Notes under the pieces: model-generated | What the model was told of the DNA's origin: nothing | The model's input: the letters and a program-made list of their open reading frames with translations, nothing else | Database searches by the model: none | From: a virus | Length of the DNA stretch: 64,000 nucleotides | Virus record (IMG/VR): IMGVR_UViG_3300033153_006492 | Coordinates: 1-64,000 of that record | Reading direction: 5' to 3' (one strand) | Made by a program: the position numbers and the translations under genes | Part shown: positions 4,487-46,504 of the stretch, piece by piece | Layout of the letters: each line of letters opens with the position of its first letter | Numbering within the stretch: position 1 is the first letter of the stretch

Positions 4487-4654
4487 ATGATGGGTCACAA
4501 AGGTCACATAAAGACTATTGATGAAGATGATGCCTTAACTCGTGTATGTCGTTTGGATTTGTATAAACCAGGACAACGTAAGGCTTATAAACAGGCTTAT
4601 AATCGTCGTATTCGTCGACAAATGAAACAAAAAGATTATGACTCAATGTCGTAA
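4487..4654 (+). CDS. Basic hypothetical protein (55 aa)
   Basis: Start chosen at 4487 because the spacing 'AAAGGTTATGTT-ATG' matches the gene at 8150; an in-frame ATG at 4472 precedes the ribosome binding site. The C-terminal half is Arg/Lys/Gln-rich and helical, suggesting RNA or DNA binding. Family unknown. Confidence 0.6.
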   Translation: MMGHKGHIKTIDEDDALTRVCRLDLYKPGQRKAYKQAYNRRIRRQMKQKDYDSMS

Positions 4655-4660
4655 TTAAAT

Positions 4661-4733
4661 TCCAGCATAGCTCAGTTGGTAGAGCAGGTGACTGTTAATC
4701 ACTTTGTCGTAGGTTCAAGTCCTACTGCTGGAG
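4661..4733 (+). tRNA. tRNA-Asn (GUU), copy 1
   Basis: Acceptor TCCAGCA/TGCTGGA is perfect, D arm GCTCAGTTGGTAGAGC is canonical, the anticodon arm GGTGA-CTGTTAA-TCACT gives GTT, T arm GTAGG-TTCAAGT-CCTAC, discriminator G. Confidence 0.93.
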
Positions 4734-4745
4734 CAAACAACAAAT

Positions 4746-4936
4746 ACCGATATAGCTCAGTTGGTAGAGCGCCACCGCGAAAGGTGGATTCACGAAGTAT
4801 TATGATGTTCCTGCAGGGATTGATTGATGATTAGTGATAGAGGATTTAATCCTGAACACATAATAATTGTACAATAAAAATGTTAGTATGGAGATAAAAA
4901 TCTGAAGAGTCGTAGGTTCAAGTCCTGCTGTCGGTA
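4746..4936 (+). tRNA. tRNA-like gene with 124-nt insertion
   Basis: Acceptor ACCGATA (4746-4752) pairs with TGTCGGT (4929-4935). U8, a canonical D arm and the anticodon stem CCACC/GGTGG follow, with a six-base loop GCGAAA lacking U33. The T arm GTAGG-TTCAAGT-CCTGC is at 4912-4928. Between them (4788-4911) lies an insert closed by an 11-bp bulged helix (4799-4810 with 4854-4864). Isotype uncertain (GAA or CGA). Confidence 0.55.
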
Positions 4937-9028: not shown

Positions 9029-10189
9029 ATGATACATTCGATGTTAGATAATGATTTGTATAAGTTTTCAATGCAACAGGCAGTAATGAAATTATATCCC
9101 AGTGCAAAAGTGAAATATAAATTCATTGATCGAGGTGCTACGTATTTTCCTGAAAAAATGGTCGCTGAATTGAAACAGGCTGTTAAGGATATGGAAGGTT
9201 TGTATCTTACTTTTAATGAACGTAAGTTTTTAGAAGAAAAGGTATATTTCTTTAATCCTGTTTATGTTGATTTCTTAAATGGTTATCGTTATAAATCTGA
9301 TGAAGTTGATATTAACTGGGATTCTGGCGAACTACAAATTACCATTGAAGGATATTGGTTTCGTACAATCTTATGGGAAGTACCTTTAATGGCTTTGGTT
9401 TCTGAATTATATTTTAAACATACCGGTGCTTCAGTTATCTGGAGCGATTTAGATATTCGCAACGAACATAAGGCTGAAGATTTTAAGGAATTGGATGTTA
9501 AGATTGCTGATTTTGGAACTCGTCGTCGGTATTCATATAAAAGCCAACAAAGATTAGTTGAAGAATTTAATAAATGGAATTTCTTTGTTGGAACAAGTAA
9601 TATGCATTTCGCAGAAAAATACAACTTAACTCCAATTGGAACACAGGCTCACGAATGGTTTATGTTTCATGCTGCTAAGTATGGATTTCATCAAGCTAAT
9701 TCTATTTCGTTGGGTCGTTGGGTTGATGTATATAATGGTGATTTGGGGATTGCATTGTCTGATACTTTTACAACTGAATCATTTTTCAAATCGTTTGATA
9801 CATTGTATGCTAAATTATTTGATGGTGTTCGTCACGATTCAGGTGACGCTATCAAATTTGGAAATGAAGTTGAAAAACATTATGAAAAGTTAGGGATTCC
9901 ACCTACCAGCAAAACAATTGTATTTTCTGATGGATTGGACTTTGATGAAGTACAACGTATAGAATCATATGGCTGGAAAATAAAACGGTCATATGGTATT
10001 GGAACTTGGTTATCAAATGATATTCCTGACGTTCATCCGCTAAATATGGTAATTAAAATGGTAGCTGCTAAACCAAGTGGTGAAGACGAATGGATTAACA
10101 CAATAAAGTTAAGCGACGATGAAGGAAAACATACTGGAAATCGGAAAACAATTGAATTAGCAAAAAATGTACTTAATATAAAGGAGTAA
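9029..10189 (+). CDS. pncB: Nicotinate phosphoribosyltransferase
   Basis: Makes nicotinate mononucleotide from nicotinate and PRPP (Preiss-Handler NAD salvage). Length 386 aa fits bacterial PncB. Family landmarks are clear: 'LDNDLYKFSMQQAV' at the N-terminus, 'DFGTRRR' and 'GTQAHEWF' mid-protein, 'RHDSGD' around residue 272, 'FSDGLD' and 'SYGIGTWL' towards the end. The intact active-site signatures suggest a working enzyme. Its expected partner, nicotinamidase, is at 40108-40867 but frame-disrupted. Confidence 0.93.
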   Translation: MIHSMLDNDLYKFSMQQAVMKLYPSAKVKYKFIDRGATYFPEKMVAELKQAVKDMEGLYLTFNERKFLEEKVYFFNPVYVDFLNGYRYKSDEVDINWDSGELQITIEGYWFRTILWEVPLMALVSELYFKHTGASVIWSDLDIRNEHKAEDFKELDVKIADFGTRRRYSYKSQQRLVEEFNKWNFFVGTSNMHFAEKYNLTPIGTQAHEWFMFHAAKYGFHQANSISLGRWVDVYNGDLGIALSDTFTTESFFKSFDTLYAKLFDGVRHDSGDAIKFGNEVEKHYEKLGIPPTSKTIVFSDGLDFDEVQRIESYGWKIKRSYGIGTWLSNDIPDVHPLNMVIKMVAAKPSGEDEWINTIKLSDDEGKHTGNRKTIELAKNVLNIKE

Positions 10190-12946: not shown

Positions 12947-12972
12947 ATGGCGGCGGTAATGTCGCCATTTTT
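12947..12972 (+). terminator. Rho-independent terminator
   Basis: ATGGCG (12947-12952) pairs with CGCCAT (12963-12968), followed by TTTTT. Separates the Pth2-like gene from the suppressor tRNA. Confidence 0.75.
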
Positions 12973-12974
12973 AT

Positions 12975-13049
12975 CTGCTTGTAGCTCAGCCCGGTAGAGC
13001 GGAGAACTCTAAATTCTCGCCAGCGTCGGTTCGAATCCGACCAAGCGGA
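12975..13049 (+). tRNA. Amber suppressor tRNA (CUA)
   Basis: Acceptor CTGCTTG/CAAGCGG, U8, D arm GCTC/GAGC, anticodon stem GAGAA/TTCTC with loop CTCTAAA: U33 is followed by anticodon CTA (13009-13011), which reads UAG. The T arm GTCGG-TTCGAAT-CCGAC is perfect; discriminator A. The charged amino acid cannot be told. TAG is used as an apparent true stop by about ten genes here, so suppression is probably partial or stage-specific. Confidence 0.85.
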
Positions 13050-13074
13050 CGACAAGGATAGGAGAATAAATACA

Positions 13075-13854: not shown

Positions 13855-14052
13855 ATGATTAATAAAATGACGCTTCATACTGGAGAAAGTGATAATATTA
13901 TTTACATTGATTGGGATGGAAAACAGAAAAAACAAAAAGATATGATGCGTGTTGAAATAAAAGTACATAAAAATCATACTGTTAGAGTACTTGAAATTAA
14001 CATAAATGATGAAAATATAGTAACATTATTAGATGAGGAAGAAGATGCCTAA
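13855..14052 (+). CDS. Hypothetical protein (65 aa)
   Basis: ATG after TAAAGGAAATAAG. Small beta-rich protein, no recognised motif; its end overlaps the exonuclease gene by 8 nt. Confidence 0.55.
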   Translation: MINKMTLHTGESDNIIYIDWDGKQKKQKDMMRVEIKVHKNHTVRVLEININDENIVTLLDEEEDA

Positions 14053-14680
14053 AAAAATACAAAGATTAAATATAATTGATTTGGAGTCGACATGCTGGCC
14101 TGATCAAATTGCTCCAAATGGAGCACCTCAAAGATTCGCGTCTGAAATAATTGAAATAGGAATAGCTCAAGTAGATGTAAAGTCGCTTGAAATTTTAGAA
14201 AAGAAAAGTTATTTGGTTAAGCCAGTAACATATCCTAAATTGAGTAAGTATTGTACTGATTTAACAAGTATAACCAATGAAATGTTAGATGAAGAAGGAA
14301 CGACGTTAGCCTATGCTATTGCTCGAATGTTATCTGAATTTAAGACGATGAAGTATGAATGGGCTTCGTGGGGAGATTATGACAGAAGCCAATTCCAACG
14401 AGAATGTGAGCATAAGAATATACAATATCCTTTTCACAAGACACATCTTAACTTGAAATATATATTATCTACGTTAATAGGAAGCAAAGTACAACGGAAC
14501 ATGGATGGTATAATGGAATTCTTAGATATGAAATTTGAAGGAAGCGCTCACAGAGGTGTTGATGATGCTTATAATACAGCGAAGATATATATTAAGATTA
14601 TGGCTGCTATTGGTGAAACAGTTAATTCGAGAGTACTCTGTCAACTTTGGGGAGACGACTTCCACAAGGAAAATAGTTAG
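14045..14680 (+). CDS. DEDDh 3'-5' exonuclease (211 aa)
   Basis: Start at 14045 follows GAGGAAGAAG; an in-frame ATG at 14033 is possible. The Exo I motif is IDLEST (D12, E14). 'EIIEIGIAQVD' follows, then 'WASWGDYDRSQF' (Exo II region) and 'HRGVDDAYNTA' (Exo III with the His and Asp of the DEDDh class). The layout matches KapD/ERI-1-type exonucleases that trim RNA or DNA 3' ends. Given the neighbouring RNA genes, RNA processing is plausible. Confidence 0.8.
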   Translation: MPKKIQRLNIIDLESTCWPDQIAPNGAPQRFASEIIEIGIAQVDVKSLEILEKKSYLVKPVTYPKLSKYCTDLTSITNEMLDEEGTTLAYAIARMLSEFKTMKYEWASWGDYDRSQFQRECEHKNIQYPFHKTHLNLKYILSTLIGSKVQRNMDGIMEFLDMKFEGSAHRGVDDAYNTAKIYIKIMAAIGETVNSRVLCQLWGDDFHKENS

Positions 14681-16162: not shown

Positions 16163-16170
16163 CAACTTTT

Positions 16171-16330
16171 AGGGTCGGAGATGCAACGTTACCTCAGACG
16201 AAGCTGAAGAGAAGGTGAGTTTTCATACTTTACTCACTAACCATTCTATAAAACGAAGCCGAAAGGTTAGAATGGTCAGTATAAGTGTCTTGATAATAAC
16301 AAACAAGTAAAAAGTCATTGATATAACAAT
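16171..16330 (+). ncRNA. Structured RNA upstream of TROVE gene (RNA-1)
   Basis: No ORF. Starts with GGGTCGG and contains GTTACCTCA. Helices: TTACCT/AGGTGA (16189-16194, 16213-16218), TGAGT/ACTCA (16216-16236) and a perfect 9-bp ACCATTCTA/TAGAATGGT (16240-16276). It shares GGGTCG..GTTACCTCA..CGAA with RNA-2 at 16405. Candidate Y-type RNA partner of the TROVE protein; inferred from position and paired elements. Confidence 0.45.
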
Positions 16331-16404
16331 GTAAATAAAAACGTGGAATAAACTACGGAATAAACAATTCTTCGTTGGTCATAATTTATCCTAAAGCATT
16401 TTAA

Positions 16405-16500
16405 ATGGGTCGCTGGTACAGGGTTACCTCAATCGAAAACTGCGGCGTTCGCGCCGTAGGTGAAGCAGGACGTGATGCTCGTCAATCTCCTTGTCCACTT
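16405..16500 (+). ncRNA. Structured RNA upstream of TROVE gene (RNA-2)
   Basis: GGGTCGC... with an outer helix ACAGGG/CCTTGT (16418-16423, 16489-16494), an 8-bp hairpin CTGCGGCG-TTCG-CGCCGTAG with a stable UUCG tetraloop (16440-16459), and GACG/CGTC (16469-16483). It shares 5' sequence features with RNA-1. Y-RNA-like function is a hypothesis from its location. Confidence 0.5.
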
Positions 16501-16528
16501 TTATCCGTTTATATTTTTAACATTACAT

Positions 16529-16602
16529 TGCGGGGTAGAGCAGTCTGGTAGCTTGCTTGGCTCATAACCAAGTGGTCGCTGGTTCAAATCCAGCCCCCGC
16601 AA
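16529..16602 (+). tRNA. Initiator tRNA-fMet (CAU)
   Basis: TGCGGGG...CCCCGCA with anticodon arm CTTGG-CTCATAA-CCAAG and T arm GCTGG-TTCAAAT-CCAGC. Sequence and layout closely follow bacterial initiator tRNAs (AGCAGTCTGGTAGCT in the D arm). Position 1:72 is T:A rather than the bacterial mismatch C:A. Only two G:C-type pairs close the anticodon stem, not the usual three. Phage initiator tRNAs are uncommon. Confidence 0.85.
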
Positions 16603-16634
16603 CTTTATAGGTCTTTCACAATATAATAATACAA

Positions 16635-16965
16635 GTCCTCGTGGCCGAATAACACGTATAGGCGTGTAAGGCATTGTAGCCCCAGCTGAAAAGCTTGGGG
16701 AGCGAGTTACGAACTTGGTGCGGATAAGGTGGCGACGTTCTGGAAGTGAGATCAACTTTTGGGGTTGAAATAAACAGAAACGAGCGCACGATTGCAGAAA
16801 TCCCCTAATACTTGGCATATAGCTACTATCTGTGATTATGAAGGTACAATCAATCCTTCCACTATTTAAAGATAAATTTCGACGGAGATTTATTGGTGTG
16901 ACTGAAAAATCCAAGTCCAGGCGTACGTTTGTGGGTAGATGCGAATCCCACCGAGGCATTTTTTT
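16635..16965 (+). ncRNA. tRNA-like RNA, candidate YrlA-type Y RNA
   Basis: CCTCG (16637-16641) pairs with CGAGG (16952-16956). U8, a D stem GCC/GGC and a T arm GTGGG/CCCAC (16931-16951) run directly into the acceptor strand as in a tRNA. The D loop carries an inserted hairpin ACACG/CGTGT and the T loop is 11 nt. About 240 nt of structured RNA replaces the anticodon arm, including CCCCAGCT-GAAA-AGCTTGGGG. It ends in TTTTTTT. Bacterial YrlA RNAs have tRNA-like domains and sit next to TROVE genes, as here. Confidence 0.5.
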
Positions 16966-16979
16966 ATTAAAGTAACAAA

Positions 16980-17045
16980 ACATTATTATTGGGTCGTGAA
17001 TGATGGTCATCGAGCATTCGTAAAAAACATCATTCAACATTTATC
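16980..17045 (+). ncRNA. Short GGGTCG hairpin RNA
   Basis: TGAATGATG pairs perfectly with CATCATTCA (9 bp) and GGGTCG precedes it, as in RNA-1 and RNA-2. It may be the 5' leader of the TROVE transcript or a further Y-type RNA. Confidence 0.35.
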
Positions 17046-17064
17046 TGGTTAATATTTTTAAGTG

Positions 17065-17097
17065 AACCCGCCAGATATTTCTGTGCGGGTTTTTTTG
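17065..17097 (+). terminator. Rho-independent terminator
   Basis: ACCCGC...GCGGGT with inner CAGA-TATT-TCTG, then TTTTTTT. It closes the RNA cluster just before the TROVE gene. Confidence 0.85.
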
Positions 17098-17141
17098 TTT
17101 ATAAATTAGAGTCATTAATTCTAAATCAGGAGGTACATATC

Positions 17142-18830
17142 ATGCAAAAGTATAACAAACATGTAAACACACAAAAGACTTCACAACAAGAAGCAATTTT
17201 AGGTCGTGAAAAAGAAATGGCAAAGAACTATGCTGGTGGTGTAGTTTTTAAATTAGACGATTGGAAGGTACTTGATAGGTTCTTAATTCTTGGAAGCGAC
17301 AAACCTACTTACTATGCGTCTGCTCAAAAATTGACTAAAGAACATGCTAAGAATGTAATGGGATTAATTCAGGAAGATGCTAAGCGTGTCGTAGACCGTG
17401 TAGTTGAAATTTCATTAGCTGGTCGCGCACCAAACAACGATCCAGCATTATTCATTCTTGCGATGGTTGCAGGATTGGCTGACGACGAAGGAAAGAAATA
17501 TGCACTTAGTGTTCTTTCTAAAGTAGCCCGTATTGGAACACACTTATTTCACTTTGCAGAATATGTACAAGGGTTTCGAGGTTGGGGTCGTGGATTAAGA
17601 AATGGAATTGCCAAATGGTATCTTGAAAAGGATATTGATAAATTGGCTCTTCAAGTTGTAAAATATCAATCTCGCGATGGATGGTCTCACCGAGACATTC
17701 TTCGTAAGACTCACGTACAAGCCTTCAACGATGATATGAACAAAATTTTCGCTTGGGTTACACATGGAATTGGCGGCGAAATGAAAGTTAAGGGTGGAGA
17801 AACTGTAGAGACATTTCCACATACTGTTAATGATGTAAAGGACATTAAATTGATCTATGCATTTGAAATGGCTAAGAAAGCAACGTCGGAAGATGAAATC
17901 GTTGCTTTGATTAAGGAATACAGATTGCCAAGAGAAGCTATTCCTACGAATTTCATGGGTAAGAAAGTTTACCGAGCTCTTTTACCAGGGATGCCTATGA
18001 CTGCGTTAATTCGGAATTTAGGTAACCTGTCGAAGAATGGAATTCTTGTTGCTGGAAATTTTGACGACATTAATATGGTTGTTGAAAAAATTACTAACGA
18101 AGAAAACCTTAAAAAAGCAAGAGTTCATCCTATGCAATTGTTGATGGCAATGAAAACTTACGGAGCTGGACACGGAATGCGTGGGAAAGGTGAATGGAAA
18201 GTTGTACCACAGATCGTTGATGCTTTGGATGAAGCATTCTACAAAGCATTCTCATTTATTGTACCATCTGGAAAACGAATTCTTATTGCGCTTGATATTT
18301 CCGGTTCAATGGGTATGGATTACGGTGTGGCTGGTATTACTGGATTTACACCAAGAGAAGCATCTGCTGCTATGGCAATGGTAACGATGAAGGCAGAAAA
18401 GAATTGGGCAATTGTAGGATTTTCTGGTGGATATGGTAATGGGAGTTGGAATAATAACCGTGATGAATTAATCACATTGGATTTATCACCGAACATGAGA
18501 TTGAATGATGTTGTTAGAAAGGTAAGCAATTTACCATTTGGGTCTACTGATTGTGCATTACCTGCTGTTTGGGCGAAAAAAAATAAACTGGACTTTGATG
18601 CGATCTACATTTATACAGACAGCGAAACTTGGGTTGGAAACATTCAACCGGTTCAAGCGATGAGAGATTATCGTAAAGCTGTTGGACATGATGTTAAACT
18701 TGTTGTGGTAGCAATGACCTCGACTGGATTCACAATTGCTGATCCAAAAGACGCCTCTATGCTTGACGTTGTAGGATTTGATAGTAATGCACCTGCAATA
18801 ATGTCAAGCTTTGTAGACGATAAATTATAA
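17142..18830 (+). CDS. TROVE-domain Ro60 homologue (562 aa)
   Basis: Ro60/Rsr proteins are ring-shaped RNA-binding proteins that hold Y RNAs and misfolded RNAs and can feed exonucleases. The TROVE HEAT-repeat region covers about residues 30-370 (including 'RDILRKTHVQ'). A vWA-like domain follows, with an intact MIDAS motif DISGS at 385-389 ('ALDISGSM'), and ends near 562. Length is usual for bacterial Rsr. ATG after CAGGAGGTACATATC. The upstream kilobase encodes tRNA-like and hairpin RNAs, as expected for a Ro/Y RNA locus. RtcB is not in this window. Confidence 0.92.
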   Translation: MQKYNKHVNTQKTSQQEAILGREKEMAKNYAGGVVFKLDDWKVLDRFLILGSDKPTYYASAQKLTKEHAKNVMGLIQEDAKRVVDRVVEISLAGRAPNNDPALFILAMVAGLADDEGKKYALSVLSKVARIGTHLFHFAEYVQGFRGWGRGLRNGIAKWYLEKDIDKLALQVVKYQSRDGWSHRDILRKTHVQAFNDDMNKIFAWVTHGIGGEMKVKGGETVETFPHTVNDVKDIKLIYAFEMAKKATSEDEIVALIKEYRLPREAIPTNFMGKKVYRALLPGMPMTALIRNLGNLSKNGILVAGNFDDINMVVEKITNEENLKKARVHPMQLLMAMKTYGAGHGMRGKGEWKVVPQIVDALDEAFYKAFSFIVPSGKRILIALDISGSMGMDYGVAGITGFTPREASAAMAMVTMKAEKNWAIVGFSGGYGNGSWNNNRDELITLDLSPNMRLNDVVRKVSNLPFGSTDCALPAVWAKKNKLDFDAIYIYTDSETWVGNIQPVQAMRDYRKAVGHDVKLVVVAMTSTGFTIADPKDASMLDVVGFDSNAPAIMSSFVDDKL

Positions 18831-28297: not shown

Positions 28298-28326
28298 TTG
28301 ACATTGAGTTGTGGATTTAGTATATT
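28298..28326 (+). promoter_or_regulatory. Early-type promoter TTGACA-N17-TATATT
   Basis: TTGACA (28298-28303), 17-bp spacer, TATATT (28321-28326), then CTG. Drives the Thg1-like gene. Confidence 0.85.
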
Positions 28327-28354
28327 CTGTAAAACTAACATAAGGGAAAATGTA

Positions 28355-29116
28355 ATGACTGATAGTTTAGGTGATCGGATGAAGAAATATGAAAAACAAG
28401 CATCTAATCAAATTGATGCTAATCTTCCTGTATTTGTACGATTGGATGGTAAAGCCTTCCATACATGGGTAAAAATTATGGGATGTGAGAAACCATTTGA
28501 TGAATCACTTTCATATCTTTTTCAAACAGCAACAGTTAATACTTGTCAAGATATTGGACAAGTGATTATGGCTTATAGTCAATCGGACGAAGTGACATTT
28601 TTATTAAGTGGTTGGCAGCATCTTGATTCCCAGATTTATTTTGGTGGGAAGAGTCAAAAGATTACGTCTGTTATTGCATCTATATTTACTGGTCATTTTA
28701 TCAGGACTTTGTTAGGTATGAATGAATATGCTGTATTGGCTGATGGTGAAATCAAATTACCTTCATTTGATGCTCGTGTATTTAATGTGCCTGTACATGA
28801 AATTGAAAATGTTTTTATTTGGCGACAGATGGATGCTAAGAGAAATTCTATTCAATCAATAGCCCGTTCATTGTATAGTCATAAAGAATTAAATGGAAAA
28901 TCATCTAAGATTATGTTAGATATGATTAAAGCTAAAGATTTAGATTGGAACGATTTACCTATTATTCAAAAGCTTGGATTTGTTGTTAAAAAGGATGAAT
29001 ACATTGTTCCGTCTGATACTGGTAATGTTGTTCGTACTCGTTGGATAATTGATAATGATATTCCATTTTTTGTAGATGAATCTGAATATATTACTGATTT
29101 AATTTCAGCAGAATAA
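28355..29116 (+). CDS. Thg1-like 3'-5' RNA polymerase (253 aa)
   Basis: Start at 28355 follows AGGGAAAATGTA. 'VFVRLDGKAFHTW' (D31) and 'AYSQSDEVTFLL' (D78, E79) are the metal-binding catalytic motifs of the tRNA-His guanylyltransferase family. Bacterial and phage Thg1-like proteins add nucleotides 3' to 5' and can repair tRNA 5' ends. Length is usual. It has its own early-type promoter. In a genome with a large tRNA array and odd tRNAs, 5'-end repair or maturation is a natural role; no tRNA-His was found in the window. Confidence 0.9.
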   Translation: MTDSLGDRMKKYEKQASNQIDANLPVFVRLDGKAFHTWVKIMGCEKPFDESLSYLFQTATVNTCQDIGQVIMAYSQSDEVTFLLSGWQHLDSQIYFGGKSQKITSVIASIFTGHFIRTLLGMNEYAVLADGEIKLPSFDARVFNVPVHEIENVFIWRQMDAKRNSIQSIARSLYSHKELNGKSSKIMLDMIKAKDLDWNDLPIIQKLGFVVKKDEYIVPSDTGNVVRTRWIIDNDIPFFVDESEYITDLISAE

Positions 29117-34877: not shown

Positions 34878-35084
34878 ATGGACGTTAGGAAGAATCAATT
34901 AGTTAAATTCACACCGCCAGTTGGATATGAGGATGAATATCCATTTGAAAAAGATGAAGTGGTTTTGTTTCTGGGTGAAATTGAATTAATGAGTGGACAT
35001 TGTATTGTAGTTAAAAAAACTGGGCAAGTATTGTGGGGATACCACACTGATAATTTTATACCGATCACAGAGGAGGAAATATGA
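34878..35084 (+). CDS. Hypothetical SH3-like protein (68 aa)
   Basis: ATG after GAAGGGAAAATTA. Pattern of short beta strands ('NQLVKFTPPVG', 'DEVVLFLGEIE') suggests a small barrel. No family recognised. Overlaps the NADAR gene by 4 nt. Confidence 0.55.
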   Translation: MDVRKNQLVKFTPPVGYEDEYPFEKDEVVLFLGEIELMSGHCIVVKKTGQVLWGYHTDNFIPITEEEI

Positions 35085-35560
35085 TAAATTGGGAACGAGA
35101 AACAGATACACACATATATTTTTGGAATGGTATTTTTTCCAACTTTCATTCAGTGGAATTTGAATATAAGGATCACATATTTCAAAATACTGAACAGGCT
35201 TTTATGTGGGAAAAGGCTATGTATTTTAATGATATGGTAATGGCAAACAAAATACTTAATACTCCAATACCTGGGAAAGCAAAGGCATTAGGGCGGAAGG
35301 TGAAGAATTTTGATGATAAAAAATGGACTCTTATTTCATATCAAATTATGTGTAATGTCAATCGGGCGAAATATGGTCAACATTCTGATTTACAAAAAGT
35401 GTTATTATCTACAGGCTCCAAAATTATTGTTGAAGCATCTCCTTATGATAAAATTTGGGGAGTTGGATTACATTGGTCTGACGACAAACTTCTTAATGAA
35501 TCAAATTGGGATGGATTAAATTTATTAGGAAAATGTTTAATGGAAGTAAGAAATGGATAA
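35081..35560 (+). CDS. NADAR (YbiA-like) protein (159 aa)
   Basis: 'YFWNGIFSNFHSVEFEY', 'NTEQAFMWEKAMYF', 'KALGRKVKNFD' and 'WGVGLHW' are signatures of the NADAR fold, and length is usual. Members hydrolyse N-glycosidic bonds, and some reverse ADP-ribosylation of guanine in DNA, which counters DarT-type toxins. In a phage it is therefore a candidate anti-defence protein. Overlaps the upstream gene by 4 nt and the downstream HNH-like gene by 8 nt. Confidence 0.85.
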   Translation: MINWERETDTHIYFWNGIFSNFHSVEFEYKDHIFQNTEQAFMWEKAMYFNDMVMANKILNTPIPGKAKALGRKVKNFDDKKWTLISYQIMCNVNRAKYGQHSDLQKVLLSTGSKIIVEASPYDKIWGVGLHWSDDKLLNESNWDGLNLLGKCLMEVRNG

Positions 35561-41124: not shown

Positions 41125-41862
41125 ATGCCTTTATTAATGGATGAAACTCAGGAACAAATAAAATCCGGCTCGAATTATAAGTTCAGTGCGGTGAAATTAG
41201 ATTCACTTGGAGCCAGTGAATATACATTGGTTACAATTGTCGTAGACCGTTCGTCTTCTCTATATGGTTATGACAGGGATCTTGAAAAGATGATTAAAGA
41301 ATCAGTAGATTCATGTAAAAAAAGTGGTCGTGTGGAAAATCTTCTTATTAGATTAGTATCATTTAATCAGCAGGAATCTGAAGAACATGGATTTAAGTTA
41401 TTGAATACGATTGATTTAGTTGATTATGATAACTTAATTAAAACATCTGGTTCAACTCGTTTGTTTGATTCGGCATATCATGCTATTGAAGCGACAGCCG
41501 AATATGCAAAGATTATGGCTAAACAGGATTATTTCTCTAATGCCATTATATTTGTTATAACTGATGGTGATGATAATTCGTCAACATATGGGCCTGGACA
41601 AATAAAGACGCTTCTTGAAAAGGTTCGTCAATCAGAGGATTTGGAATCTATTGCTGTTGTACTTGTTGGTATGAATGGAGAAGCATATGTTCAACAATAT
41701 CTTGACGACTTCAAAAAGGATGCTGAACTTGATGAATATATTGATATGGGTGATGTATCGGCTTCTAAACTTGCCAAACTTGCCGGTTATATTAGTAGAA
41801 GTATAAGTTCAACTTCTCAGGCACTTGGTGGTGGTGGAAAATCAACATCATTGTCATTTTAA
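41125..41862 (+). CDS. vWA-domain protein, TerY-like (245 aa)
   Basis: A single von Willebrand A domain with intact MIDAS DRSSS (41-45) and 'TDGDDNSS' as the second metal loop. It ends in a Gly/Ser-rich tail. Together with PP2C and kinase genes it forms a vWA-PP2C-kinase group like the TerY-phosphorylation triad of chemical-stress and defence loci. ATG after GAGGAGGATAAGTT. Confidence 0.85.
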   Translation: MPLLMDETQEQIKSGSNYKFSAVKLDSLGASEYTLVTIVVDRSSSLYGYDRDLEKMIKESVDSCKKSGRVENLLIRLVSFNQQESEEHGFKLLNTIDLVDYDNLIKTSGSTRLFDSAYHAIEATAEYAKIMAKQDYFSNAIIFVITDGDDNSSTYGPGQIKTLLEKVRQSEDLESIAVVLVGMNGEAYVQQYLDDFKKDAELDEYIDMGDVSASKLAKLAGYISRSISSTSQALGGGGKSTSLSF

Positions 41863-41874
41863 GGAGGTTAAAAA

Positions 41875-42231
41875 ATGGGATGTTTTAGTTATGTGTGCCA
41901 AATATGTGGAGACCCAGTAAATTCTGATAGTTTTTCTGGTGAACATGTTAAGTTATTTCTGTTAAAAGAGGGAAAGGTCATTGAAAAACTAAGTGGACAA
42001 TATGATAGTTACGGTAGAGTATTTGATGAAAATATGAAATCTATTGAATGGAAAATGGATTGGACTGATGTATGTGATTTAGAATTTAGCAAAGATAAAT
42101 CAAATGGTATCGCTGCTATTCATACAGATTGTTTTGATGGTACTATTCCAATAGAAAGATCAGAATCCGATCCTGATCAGGGATGGGGCGAATATAAACA
42201 TTCTACGGATGGTACAAATAACGAAGGGTGA
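41875..42231 (+). CDS. Cys-containing protein in vWA/PP2C group (118 aa)
   Basis: ATG after AAGGAGGTTAAAAA. Starts with CxxC ('CQICGD') and one more Cys and His pair near the end, so metal binding is possible. Its place between vWA and PP2C genes suggests a partner in the same system. Confidence 0.6.
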   Translation: MGCFSYVCQICGDPVNSDSFSGEHVKLFLLKEGKVIEKLSGQYDSYGRVFDENMKSIEWKMDWTDVCDLEFSKDKSNGIAAIHTDCFDGTIPIERSESDPDQGWGEYKHSTDGTNNEG

Positions 42232-42235
42232 ATAT

Positions 42236-43039
42236 ATGAATTCAGATAGTCATTTCTTAATAGGGCATAGTCATAATGTATGTGAAGATTATGCCCTTTC
42301 AGGTAAACATGATGATTTACATTATGCTATTGTATCAGATGGTTGTTCGGCGTCAAAGGATGTAGATATTGGTGCTCGAATTTTAGCGAAGACGGCTGAA
42401 TCTGTTATTAAAGCTGTGTATACACATCCGTATCAACCTCATTACTATTGGAATATCATAGGTAGCATGATTATATCAAATGCTCAGAGGACTATTCGTA
42501 GTCTCGGGATAGCAGATACAGCACTTGATGCTACGTTATTATTTGCAGTTGGATATGAAGATAGAGAATCTTTTTCTCTCTTTGCTTATGGTGATGGTTC
42601 ATTTTCGTATTATGACATTGATAATAAATTACATATCATTGATATTGAATATGAAAGTGGTGCTCCATATTATCTGTCTTATCGGCTCGACAAACAAAGA
42701 CAAGAGGGTTACCGTGAGAATTTTCCTGGGAAAGTTAATATAAATCATTATTATGAAAATGATGATGGAAAATTAGATATTAAGGTTGGAAGTGTTGAAC
42801 ATTATGATTTTGAATTTTGTTTAGATGTTCCAGTTGGGTCATATATATCTGTTTTTTCAGATGGAACACACACATTTTCTGGATTAAAATTTACTGAAAC
42901 AGCGAAAGAATTTATGAACTTCAAAAATCACACAGGTGATTTTGTAAAACGGCGAATGAATGTTATTAAACGACGATGTGATAAAGAAGGGATTAAATAT
43001 TCTGACGATGTTTCAATGGCAAGTATTTATGTAGGATAG
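42236..43039 (+). CDS. PP2C-like protein phosphatase (267 aa)
   Basis: Start at 42236 after GAAGGGTGAATAT. 'EDYAL' (E17-D18), 'VSDGCSAS' (D35-G36) and a C-terminal 'YSDDVSMAS' are the PP2C metal-binding motifs. The size is typical. It presumably opposes the kinase encoded two genes later. Confidence 0.85.
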   Translation: MNSDSHFLIGHSHNVCEDYALSGKHDDLHYAIVSDGCSASKDVDIGARILAKTAESVIKAVYTHPYQPHYYWNIIGSMIISNAQRTIRSLGIADTALDATLLFAVGYEDRESFSLFAYGDGSFSYYDIDNKLHIIDIEYESGAPYYLSYRLDKQRQEGYRENFPGKVNINHYYENDDGKLDIKVGSVEHYDFEFCLDVPVGSYISVFSDGTHTFSGLKFTETAKEFMNFKNHTGDFVKRRMNVIKRRCDKEGIKYSDDVSMASIYVG

Positions 43040-43043
43040 TATT

Positions 43044-43253
43044 ATGAATAAAAATAAAAAAATAGTTTTATATCCAATCGAAGTACCAAAAGGAATGTAT
43101 TGTATGGAACATAAAGCACCATTTGCTATATGTGAACATTTGGATAATGAAGGTGGTGTTTCAATATGTAATCTCAATTTTCCATTTCTTAATGATACTG
43201 AATATGGAATTACAAAATCTCCCATTTGTGTGAATTTAAAGGATAAAAAATGA
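43044..43253 (+). CDS. Small Cys/His protein (69 aa)
   Basis: No strong ribosome binding site; the start lies 2 nt after the PP2C stop, so translation is probably coupled. Has several Cys and His residues ('YCMEHKAPFAICEHL') that could bind metal. Overlaps the kinase start by 4 nt. Confidence 0.6.
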   Translation: MNKNKKIVLYPIEVPKGMYCMEHKAPFAICEHLDNEGGVSICNLNFPFLNDTEYGITKSPICVNLKDKK

Positions 43254-44947
43254 AAAAACAAGTTCATATCGAAAATGTTGGGAATGTAGCTCTTACTGAT
43301 AAAAATTATATTGGTGCTGGTGGTGAAGCGTCTGTTTATCAGTCCGGTAAATTGGCTGTAAAGATTTATCATGATTCAGTCAAAGCAATACCTAAAGATA
43401 AAATGTTAGAACTTGGGAAGATACAGGCTGTTAATGTTCTAAAACCATTGCATGTAGTTTACGACTTAAAGAATAAAGATGTAATTGGATATGCTATGCA
43501 GTATATAAAAAACACTGAAGCATTATGTAAATTATTTACAAAGTCATTTAAGCAACAACATAATTTAACTCCACAAATTATTATGGGGTTGATTCAAAAG
43601 ATGCAAGAAACTGTTGCTCAAGTTCATTATGATGATTGTCTTATTGTAGATTTGAATGAAATGAATTTATTGACTTCAAATGATTTTAAGATACCATATT
43701 TTATAGATACAGACAGTTATCAAACTCCAAACTATAAAGCTACGGCTATAATGGATTCGATTAGAGATAGAACGACTTCACATGGTTCATTTAGTAATTT
43801 AACTGATTGGTATGCTTTTGCTATCATTGCTTTTCAGTTATATATTGGTATTCATCCTTACAAGGGTAAACATCCAAACTATAAGCCGAATCAATGGCAA
43901 CAGCGAATGGACGATGGAATATCTGTTTTTGATAAAGCAGTATCTCTTCCACCAGTGTGTAATGATTTCAGTGTTATTCCGCATCGCCATCGTACATGGA
44001 TGGAAGATTTATTTTTACATAACAATAGAAGTGAACCACCTCAAATTAGTGTCAGTGCTCCAATAGCATTTGTTCCTAAGATAGTTATCATTAATTCATC
44101 TGATACAGTAAATGTTGATTTAGTTGTAGATTTGGATTCAAAGAAATATGGTATTCAAAGTGTGTATAGTTTTATGGGTACAAAGTATTATCTTACTAAC
44201 GACTCTATTTACAAAAATAATAAATTGGTGGTTACAAGAGGATTTCGTTCATACGATAAAATTTTATTATGCGAAACGAATGCTATGACTCCTGTCATAT
44301 GTAAATTAATACATAAGACATTAACATTTGAAAGTGGTAGAGATGAAATAGGGAAACTTCAAACCGATGGTATGATGTATAAGCATGGAAAAATTTATAC
44401 AATGTCTGGTGGTAATTTATATAGAAATTCATTTCGTGAGATTAATAATAAGACATTGCATCAAATAGATTTTATTTCTCAAGTAAGCGAACATTCATCA
44501 AGAATGTTTGAAGGATTTGTATATCAAGATTTATTAGGTAAGCCATATTTTACCATTCCACTTGACGACAAATGTAAAAATTATTACATAAAGGAATTAG
44601 AAGGACATAGAATACTGGATGCTAAGGTGGAACGTAATGTATGTGTGGTAATGGCAGAACGTAAAGGGAAGTATCACAGATTTGTAATTATATTTGATTA
44701 CGACAAAGATACATATAATGTAAGAAAAACAGAAGATGTGTCGTATGATACGGTTAATTTTACTGTCATACAAAAAGGAGTTTGTATTTTGGCTATTGAA
44801 AACAAACAGGCTGAACTATTTATAGATAATGTAAAAATTAAAGTCATTGATAATACTCCATTTGACACATCAACGAAATTGATAAGTTTTGATAATGGTG
44901 TTTATTTTATTCATGACGATAAATTATTTGCAATTACAATGAAATAA
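43250..44947 (+). CDS. Protein kinase-like with beta-propeller tail (565 aa)
   Basis: A Gly-rich loop (22-30, 'GAGGEASVY') and VAIK-type Lys ('AVKIY', K38) start the kinase domain. A catalytic-loop-like 'IVDLNEMNLL' and a DFG-like 'FIDTDSYQ' follow, then 'DWYAFAIIAFQLYIG' as in Hanks-type kinases. The C-terminal ~270 residues show repeated beta segments, propeller-like. It completes the vWA/PP2C/kinase group. The substrate is unknown. Confidence 0.85.
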   Translation: MKKQVHIENVGNVALTDKNYIGAGGEASVYQSGKLAVKIYHDSVKAIPKDKMLELGKIQAVNVLKPLHVVYDLKNKDVIGYAMQYIKNTEALCKLFTKSFKQQHNLTPQIIMGLIQKMQETVAQVHYDDCLIVDLNEMNLLTSNDFKIPYFIDTDSYQTPNYKATAIMDSIRDRTTSHGSFSNLTDWYAFAIIAFQLYIGIHPYKGKHPNYKPNQWQQRMDDGISVFDKAVSLPPVCNDFSVIPHRHRTWMEDLFLHNNRSEPPQISVSAPIAFVPKIVIINSSDTVNVDLVVDLDSKKYGIQSVYSFMGTKYYLTNDSIYKNNKLVVTRGFRSYDKILLCETNAMTPVICKLIHKTLTFESGRDEIGKLQTDGMMYKHGKIYTMSGGNLYRNSFREINNKTLHQIDFISQVSEHSSRMFEGFVYQDLLGKPYFTIPLDDKCKNYYIKELEGHRILDAKVERNVCVVMAERKGKYHRFVIIFDYDKDTYNVRKTEDVSYDTVNFTVIQKGVCILAIENKQAELFIDNVKIKVIDNTPFDTSTKLISFDNGVYFIHDDKLFAITMK

Positions 44948-46168: not shown

Positions 46169-46504
46169 GGGAGCGTTCATGGATTCGATCAGAGGATAAA
46201 AGTAAATGACAGCAATACGTTGGGAAACGTAAAATCTAATAAAGAATAATTAACAACTCATATCAACTTGCTGCGTAATTAATTGCGTAGTCGTCAATCC
46301 ATCTTTTGTCGAGAGGTGGAAATTGACGCCGTATTCGACAAGAACTTTTGGTGGTAGGTCAAAACAAAAATATCTACTCGTGGGTAATAAATTTTCTTGT
46401 TTATTTTTAGTTTATTTTACACGTTAAAATTTAAGAATAAACTATTATTGTAGAAGTCATTTAAGTTTGCTTTTGAGACGCGGGCTCGATTCCCGCCGCT
46501 TCCA
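46169..46504 (+). ncRNA. ssrA: Transfer-messenger RNA (tmRNA)
   Basis: The acceptor GGGAGCG (46169-46175) pairs with CGCTTCC (46497-46503), with discriminator A; CCA is not encoded. The 5' 'GGATTCGA' and 3' 'GACGCGGG-CTCGATT-CCCGC' match conserved tmRNA ends. Helix 2 forms between AAATGAC (46204-46210) and GTCATTT (46456-46462). The tag ORF ends NNSYQLAA-stop (46252-46278) and helix 5 CTGCG/CGTAG follows. A pseudoknot (CGTCAAT/ATTGACG stem, loop TTGTCGA with TCGACAA) comes next. It rescues stalled ribosomes and tags products. Confidence 0.93.

Follow-up and report, generated by a model that had tools for sequence, protein, structure and literature searches.

The phage DNA analyzed here very probably encodes its own Ro60 ribonucleoprotein (Ro/Y) system, consisting of a full-length Ro60/Rsr protein together with no fewer than five and probably six Y RNAs, a reading to which we give a probability of about 0.85. 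The window, i.e., the whole stretch of DNA that was analyzed, comprises positions 1 to 64,000 of the 78,719-base IMG/VR virus record IMGVR_UViG_3300033153_006492. The source is a jumbo-like phage, and a baseplate wedge protein encoded in the record counts toward a viral origin. An earlier note on this DNA had proposed that Ro60 and Y RNAs occur together in one phage. The proposal was supported, and three more Y RNAs, missed in that note, were found at positions 239 to 654. Three of the predicted Y RNAs adjoin the Ro gene, and the other three are encoded at a distance of about 16 kb from it.

The 562-amino-acid (aa) product of positions 17142 to 18830 (plus strand) had been described as a full-length Ro60 homolog, and this was borne out. 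Pfam assigned it a TROVE domain (PF05731, 123.7 bits) and a vWA_Ro60 domain (PF25045, 198.6 bits), and it aligned with Deinococcus radiodurans Rsr from end to end (2.6e-118, residues 24 to 558) and with vertebrate Ro60 over nearly its whole length (about 1e-114). The MIDAS of the vWA domain reads DISGSM at residues 385 to 390. In the alignment, K174, R178, and H191 of the phage protein correspond to human K170, R174, and H187, so that all three positions linked to Y-RNA binding are kept; human K170 and R174 are the residues that we take to be tied to this binding. Ro60 carrying the H187S substitution loses Y RNA (PMC11277228).

The interval from 16163 to 17141, immediately upstream of the Ro gene, was found to contain, in order, RNA A, RNA B, an fMet-like tRNA, RNA C, RNA D, and a terminator-like hairpin. 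The earlier description of about 1 kb without protein genes held, as this interval has no plus-strand open reading frame of 60 aa or more; a minus-strand open reading frame at 16501 to 17040 (179 aa), overlapping the tRNA as well as RNAs C and D, was judged spurious. Four structured RNAs precede the Ro gene, where at least three had been claimed. The GGGTCG..GTTACCTCA sequence said to be common to two of them is real, being located at 16172 and 16407, and there is a third GGGTCG element at 16991. A, B, and D have GGGTCG in common on the 5' side, and their 3' sides finish in TTTATC or TTATCC.

A seed descriptor (GGGTCG, lower stem, upper stem, TTATCC) was searched in Ro loci, and many phages proved to have its elements next to their Ro genes, the expectation from mononucleotide shuffles of all loci searched being 0.8. 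Covariance model R1 was built from nine compact Y RNAs of phages outside the window lineage, and in its seed alignment 12 of the 16 pairs were compensated. When applied to 78 Ro loci, R1 produced 84 matches at E values up to 1, of which 83 were on the Ro strand; the best 62 matches lay a median of 271 bases from the Ro gene, none of them inside it. Model R2 was built from 57 matches beside the Ro genes of other phages, with the window lineage left out. All 16 of its pairs change on both sides, giving a covariation score of 0.875 versus 0.256 when shuffled, and 95.1% of the cells of the 16-pair structure are paired versus 61.7% in shuffles, with pairing falling to about 44% when the structure is slid by one column. 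The E values quoted for both models rest on a short calibration, and the models were independent of the window in sequence but not in conception, because the seed descriptor came from the window lineage.

Searched against the whole record in this held-out form at E values up to 10, R2 gave four matches, namely, RNA B and the RNAs at 239 to 310, 388 to 481, and 557 to 654. It also recovered the RNAs of two relatives that share the RNA set, L003 (a 161-kb contig with a Ro protein 69% identical) and L013 (a 293-kb contig, 67% identical); the stretch in L003 is also carried by L002 and L014, from another sample. In 74 cellular Ro loci, all 166 R2 matches were on the Ro strand, and arrays of six to ten such matches, again all on the Ro strand, were observed beside Ro genes in Anaerolineae/Chloroflexi metagenome-assembled genomes (L189, L191, L194, L183, L177, L162, and L200). 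In mycobacteriophage LinStu, gp230 (L010 2773 to 2946, corresponding to 127693 to 127866), which is annotated as hypothetical and had no Pfam match, overlaps the Y-RNA match at 127768 to 127843 and may not be a real gene.

The reading of the cluster RNAs as Y RNAs stood for B, D, and, weakly, A, which match the phage Y-RNA model, but not for RNA C. The Y-RNA architecture of paired ends in a lower stem, a CG-type internal loop, and an upper stem was found, in RNA A only weakly by score. RNA B (16400 to 16513, plus strand) carries the conserved distal module GACGTGAYGCKCGYCAATCTC and scored 19.9 bits with R1 and 24.7 bits (E = 1.5e-3) with R2. Its upper stem covaries among the three phages (ACAGGG/CCTTGT, TTAACG/CGTTAG, and ACAACG/CGTTGT). 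RNA D (16984 to 17053, plus strand) is a minimal Y RNA hairpin with the upper stem TGAATGATG/CATCATTCA. Its scores were modest (16.6 bits with R1; 12.2 bits and E = 0.019 with R2, filters off and 1 kb searched) and its lower stem depends on G-U pairs; the counterpart in L003 was matched by R2 at E = 1e-5, and other Y-type RNAs occupy this position in L013. RNA A (16165 to 16398, plus strand, about 230 nucleotides) has the lower stem TTTAGG/CCTAAA and the upper stem CAACG/CGTTG, the latter covarying with CAGAG/CTCTG in L003 and CAGGGT/ATCCTG in L013. Since its R2 score was weak (7.8 bits, E = 0.21, filters off and 1 kb searched), its identity rests mainly on these orthologs, and we consider it a probable Y RNA of a long-insert type.

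The tRNA of the cluster, tRNA-Met(CAU) at 16529 to 16603 (plus strand), had been called an initiator tRNA. Similarity marks it as fMet-like, although its base 1 is paired with base 72 and its anticodon stem has only two of the three initiator G-C pairs in register. Between RNA D and the TROVE gene there is an intrinsic-terminator-like hairpin with a T run (17065 to 17097, plus strand), and a similar hairpin also follows RNA D in L003.

The remaining Y RNAs, all on the plus strand, alternate almost without gaps with tRNA genes. Y RNA 1 (239 to 310; R2, 44.2 bits, E = 2.8e-8) lies between tRNA-Trp (167 to 241) and tRNA-Arg (316 to 390), Y RNA 2 (388 to 481; 37.0 bits, E = 1.5e-6) lies between tRNA-Arg and tRNA-Gly (484 to 557), and Y RNA 3 (557 to 654; 25.7 bits, E = 8.3e-4) is directly 3' of tRNA-Gly. 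Three Y RNAs are likewise slotted between tRNA-Ile and tRNA-Trp, tRNA-Glu and tRNA-Pro, and tRNA-Pro and tRNA-Gly in L003, and one Y RNA lies between tRNA-His and tRNA-Pro in L013. The tRNA/Y-RNA array and the gene order are conserved in the three phages. By eye, the loop of Y RNA 3 contains a T-arm-like hairpin (ATTGG-TTCGAGT-CCAAT), with no other part of a tRNA-like module noted, and no such module was seen in A, B, D, or Y RNA 1.

A search with Rfam Y RNA and YrlA models, proposed in the earlier note as a check, gave no match in the cluster at 16 kb, whether at the gathering score or at E values up to 5. The YrlA model (RF02553) probably misses this cluster because its Y RNAs are without the tRNA-like module that underlies the model. 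Weak RF02553 matches elsewhere in the record, at 4615 to 4771 and 12947 to 13026, overlap tRNA genes. YrlA matches at E values below 0.05 were obtained in 36 of 50 phage records but were given no weight by themselves, because the search also scored in 10 of 14 control genomes. L013 has a YrlA-like RNA with a T-arm and a D-arm at 2377 to 2531 (RF02553, 22.3 bits, E = 0.043; R2, E = 0.0094). In a further phage locus, L046, two compact Y RNAs matched the Rfam nematode family ceN72-3_ceN74-2 (E = 8e-5, just under the gathering score, and 0.004), which is presumably one of the stem-bulge RNA families. Nematode stem-bulge RNAs are called Y homologs in PMC4726728.

RNA C (16634 to 16962, plus strand) is, by its homology to L013 1751 to 2088, a divergent member of the manA family (RF01745) and not a Y RNA. 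The manA model matched the L013 homolog with 34.3 bits (E = 5e-7) and part of the window RNA with 15.1 bits (E = 0.0055), neither reaching the gathering score of 55.2. Features shared with manA are the pseudoknot (16637 to 16641 with 16952 to 16956, CCTCG/CGAGG), the GAAUAA-hairpin-UAAGG block, and a terminal hairpin with a UA-AUGC-AAU loop (GTGGG..CCCAC, from 16931), which is followed by a T run. In the alignment of the three phages, the block and terminal hairpin are kept with compensatory changes observed by eye, and the pseudoknot is kept as GAGTG/CACTC in L013 and with three of five pairs in register in L003. RNA C differs from manA in having large insertions and in being followed by a Y RNA or a T run with no obvious regulated gene, manA RNAs elsewhere being set in 5' untranslated regions (5' UTRs) (PMC2864571). 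Control of the Ro gene by RNA C is not evident, because RNA D and the terminator-like hairpin follow it in both the window and L003. Assignments of RNA C by eye as RNase P, transfer-messenger RNA (tmRNA), or an intron-bearing tRNA were dropped once the L013 homolog had matched manA, and extra contigs from pattern scans with the RNA C hairpin or the RNA B core were discarded as GC-rich coding matches. Another Ro phage, L093, has a manA match at 1501 to 1711 (48.7 bits, E = 2.4e-12); its Ro gene lies about 44 kb off, and tRNAs follow the match about 0.7 kb later.

The window holds more than 20 tRNA genes and, by Rfam, a tmRNA at 46169. A tRNA with a CUA anticodon at 12975 to 13050 was called tRNA-Pyl by ARAGORN and is a possible amber suppressor, and unusually long Rfam tRNA matches at 4746 to 4936 (191 bases) and 2285 to 2392 (108 bases) suggest insertions or introns in phage tRNA genes. 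Also encoded are a Thg1-family protein (tRNA 5' end guanylyltransferase/repair; 28298 to 29113, 100 bits), a NADAR protein (35081 to 35557, 154.7 bits), and NAPRTase (9029 to 10189), the latter two indicating that NAD-related genes are present. At 41125 to 44947, an unassigned protein with a DRSSS motif adjoins a PP2C phosphatase and a match to a protein kinase that stayed below its cutoff, a neighborhood reminiscent of vWA/phosphatase/kinase triads.

We propose that the phage TROVE protein would bind a stem common to all of the Y RNAs, comprising the lower stem, a CG(AAG)-type internal loop, the upper stem, and GUUAYC, with the distal parts differing from one Y RNA to the next. Since Y RNAs 1 to 3 lie almost flush between tRNA genes, they would probably be freed from a tRNA-Y precursor by tRNA-processing enzymes. 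RNAs A, B, and D would form a separate unit with the fMet-like tRNA and the manA-family RNA, ended by the terminator-like hairpin and adjoining the Ro gene. Ro loaded with different Y RNAs would then gate or direct the decay of structured RNAs during infection, and the gene order makes phage and host tRNAs the likeliest clients. We infer the transcription, processing, and Ro binding of the Y RNAs, as well as their nuclease partner and clients, and assign decay or quality control as the role only tentatively, at slightly under even odds. The window proteins scanned did not include a PNPase; an RNase_T-family 3'-5' exonuclease at 14033 to 14680, which precedes the Ro gene by about 2.5 kb, is a possible partner. 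It is a rather doubtful extension that the distal modules send one Ro protein to different partners, with half of the adaptors cut from tRNA-Y precursors and the manA-family RNA acting in trans in the same tRNA-handling apparatus.

The system might instead serve tRNA repair, with Ro and its Y RNAs holding tRNAs cut by host defense nucleases for repair with the Thg1-like enzyme. The Thg1 and NADAR proteins and the large complement of phage tRNAs are consistent with this, as is the proposal that the TROVE proteins of jumbo phages are RNA-repair platforms (PMC7824862). However, no RtcB or RNA ligase was found in the subset of window proteins that was scanned, and the Thg1 gene is more than 9 kb from the Ro gene, and we regard repair as possible but on balance unlikely. 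We consider it improbable that the distal modules mimic tRNAs and, as decoys, draw off host anticodon nucleases or modifying enzymes, an idea also raised for YrlA (PMC7790460); the T-arm-like hairpin of Y RNA 3 and the T- and D-arms of the YrlA-like RNA of L013 would fit such a role, but RNAs A, B, and D and Y RNA 1 appear by eye to be without a tRNA-like module. That Ro uses host Y RNAs or none, the window RNAs being other phage small RNAs or leaders or attenuators of the TROVE and tRNA transcripts, is very improbable, for although the terminator-like hairpin lies directly before the TROVE gene, a single phage can have as many as six copies of the same stem, some of them among tRNAs about 16 kb from the Ro gene, and the stem also recurs in cellular Ro loci and is preserved by compensatory changes.

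A phage-borne Ro/Y system bears on the questions of what Ro60 requires more than one Y RNA for and how a virus profits from them. With about six Y RNAs, some of them between tRNA genes, it would tie Ro/Y to tRNA biogenesis and offer a removable test case. The phage-trained model recovered Y RNAs that Rfam YrlA misses, including up to ten in one Anaerolineae locus, and the manA-family RNA is placed outside an obvious 5' UTR. The earlier note held that a phage with a whole Ro/Y system would be notable; the system appears to be present, but such systems are not new, since Ro-like genes occur in 341 annotated phage records and phage Y RNAs have been cited (PMC12282133).

Among known systems, the Rsr/Y RNA/PNPase complex of D. 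radiodurans (RYPER) shares with the window a full-length, end-to-end alignable Ro fold with a MIDAS-bearing vWA domain, and Rsr works with Y RNAs, as predicted for the phage protein. In that complex, it is the Y RNA that links Rsr to PNPase. The window system differs in being phage borne, in having about six Y RNAs, several of them in a tRNA array, and in having at most a candidate nuclease partner. The rsr-yrlBA-rtcBA RNA-repair operon of Salmonella (YrlA, RF02553) likewise combines a Ro protein with adjacent Y RNAs, and relative L013 has a YrlA-like RNA. In contrast, the scan of window proteins yielded neither rtcB nor rtcA, most of the window Y RNAs are without the tRNA-like module, and the cluster at 16 kb has no RF02553 match. 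For Listeria phage CKA15, an Rsr-like protein with abundant noncoding RNAs near tRNAs was proposed (PMC12282133), a similar arrangement. In Listeria phage P100, however, Pfam assigned gp165, a protein that by predicted size corresponds to CKA15_055, to DUF2828/DUF7788 and not to TROVE, and R2 gave no match in P100 (131 kb, about 18 annotated tRNAs); P100 was therefore rejected as an expression-backed Ro/Y case. Y RNAs in mycobacteriophages are credited to Chen et al. 2014 in PMC12282133. The Bxz1 group of these phages resembles the window in that several Y RNAs of LinStu (127492 to 127843) are just upstream of its Ro gene (127897). The LinStu Ro protein is about 42% identical to that of the window, which adds the Y RNA-tRNA alternation and the manA-family RNA. 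So large a set of phage Y RNAs in such an arrangement appears undescribed, the counts of Chen et al. 2014 and Sim et al. 2020 standing outside this comparison. As far as the literature covered shows, the new features are the number of Y RNAs per phage, their conserved alternation with tRNAs, the long-insert RNA A, and the presence of a manA-family RNA in the cluster.
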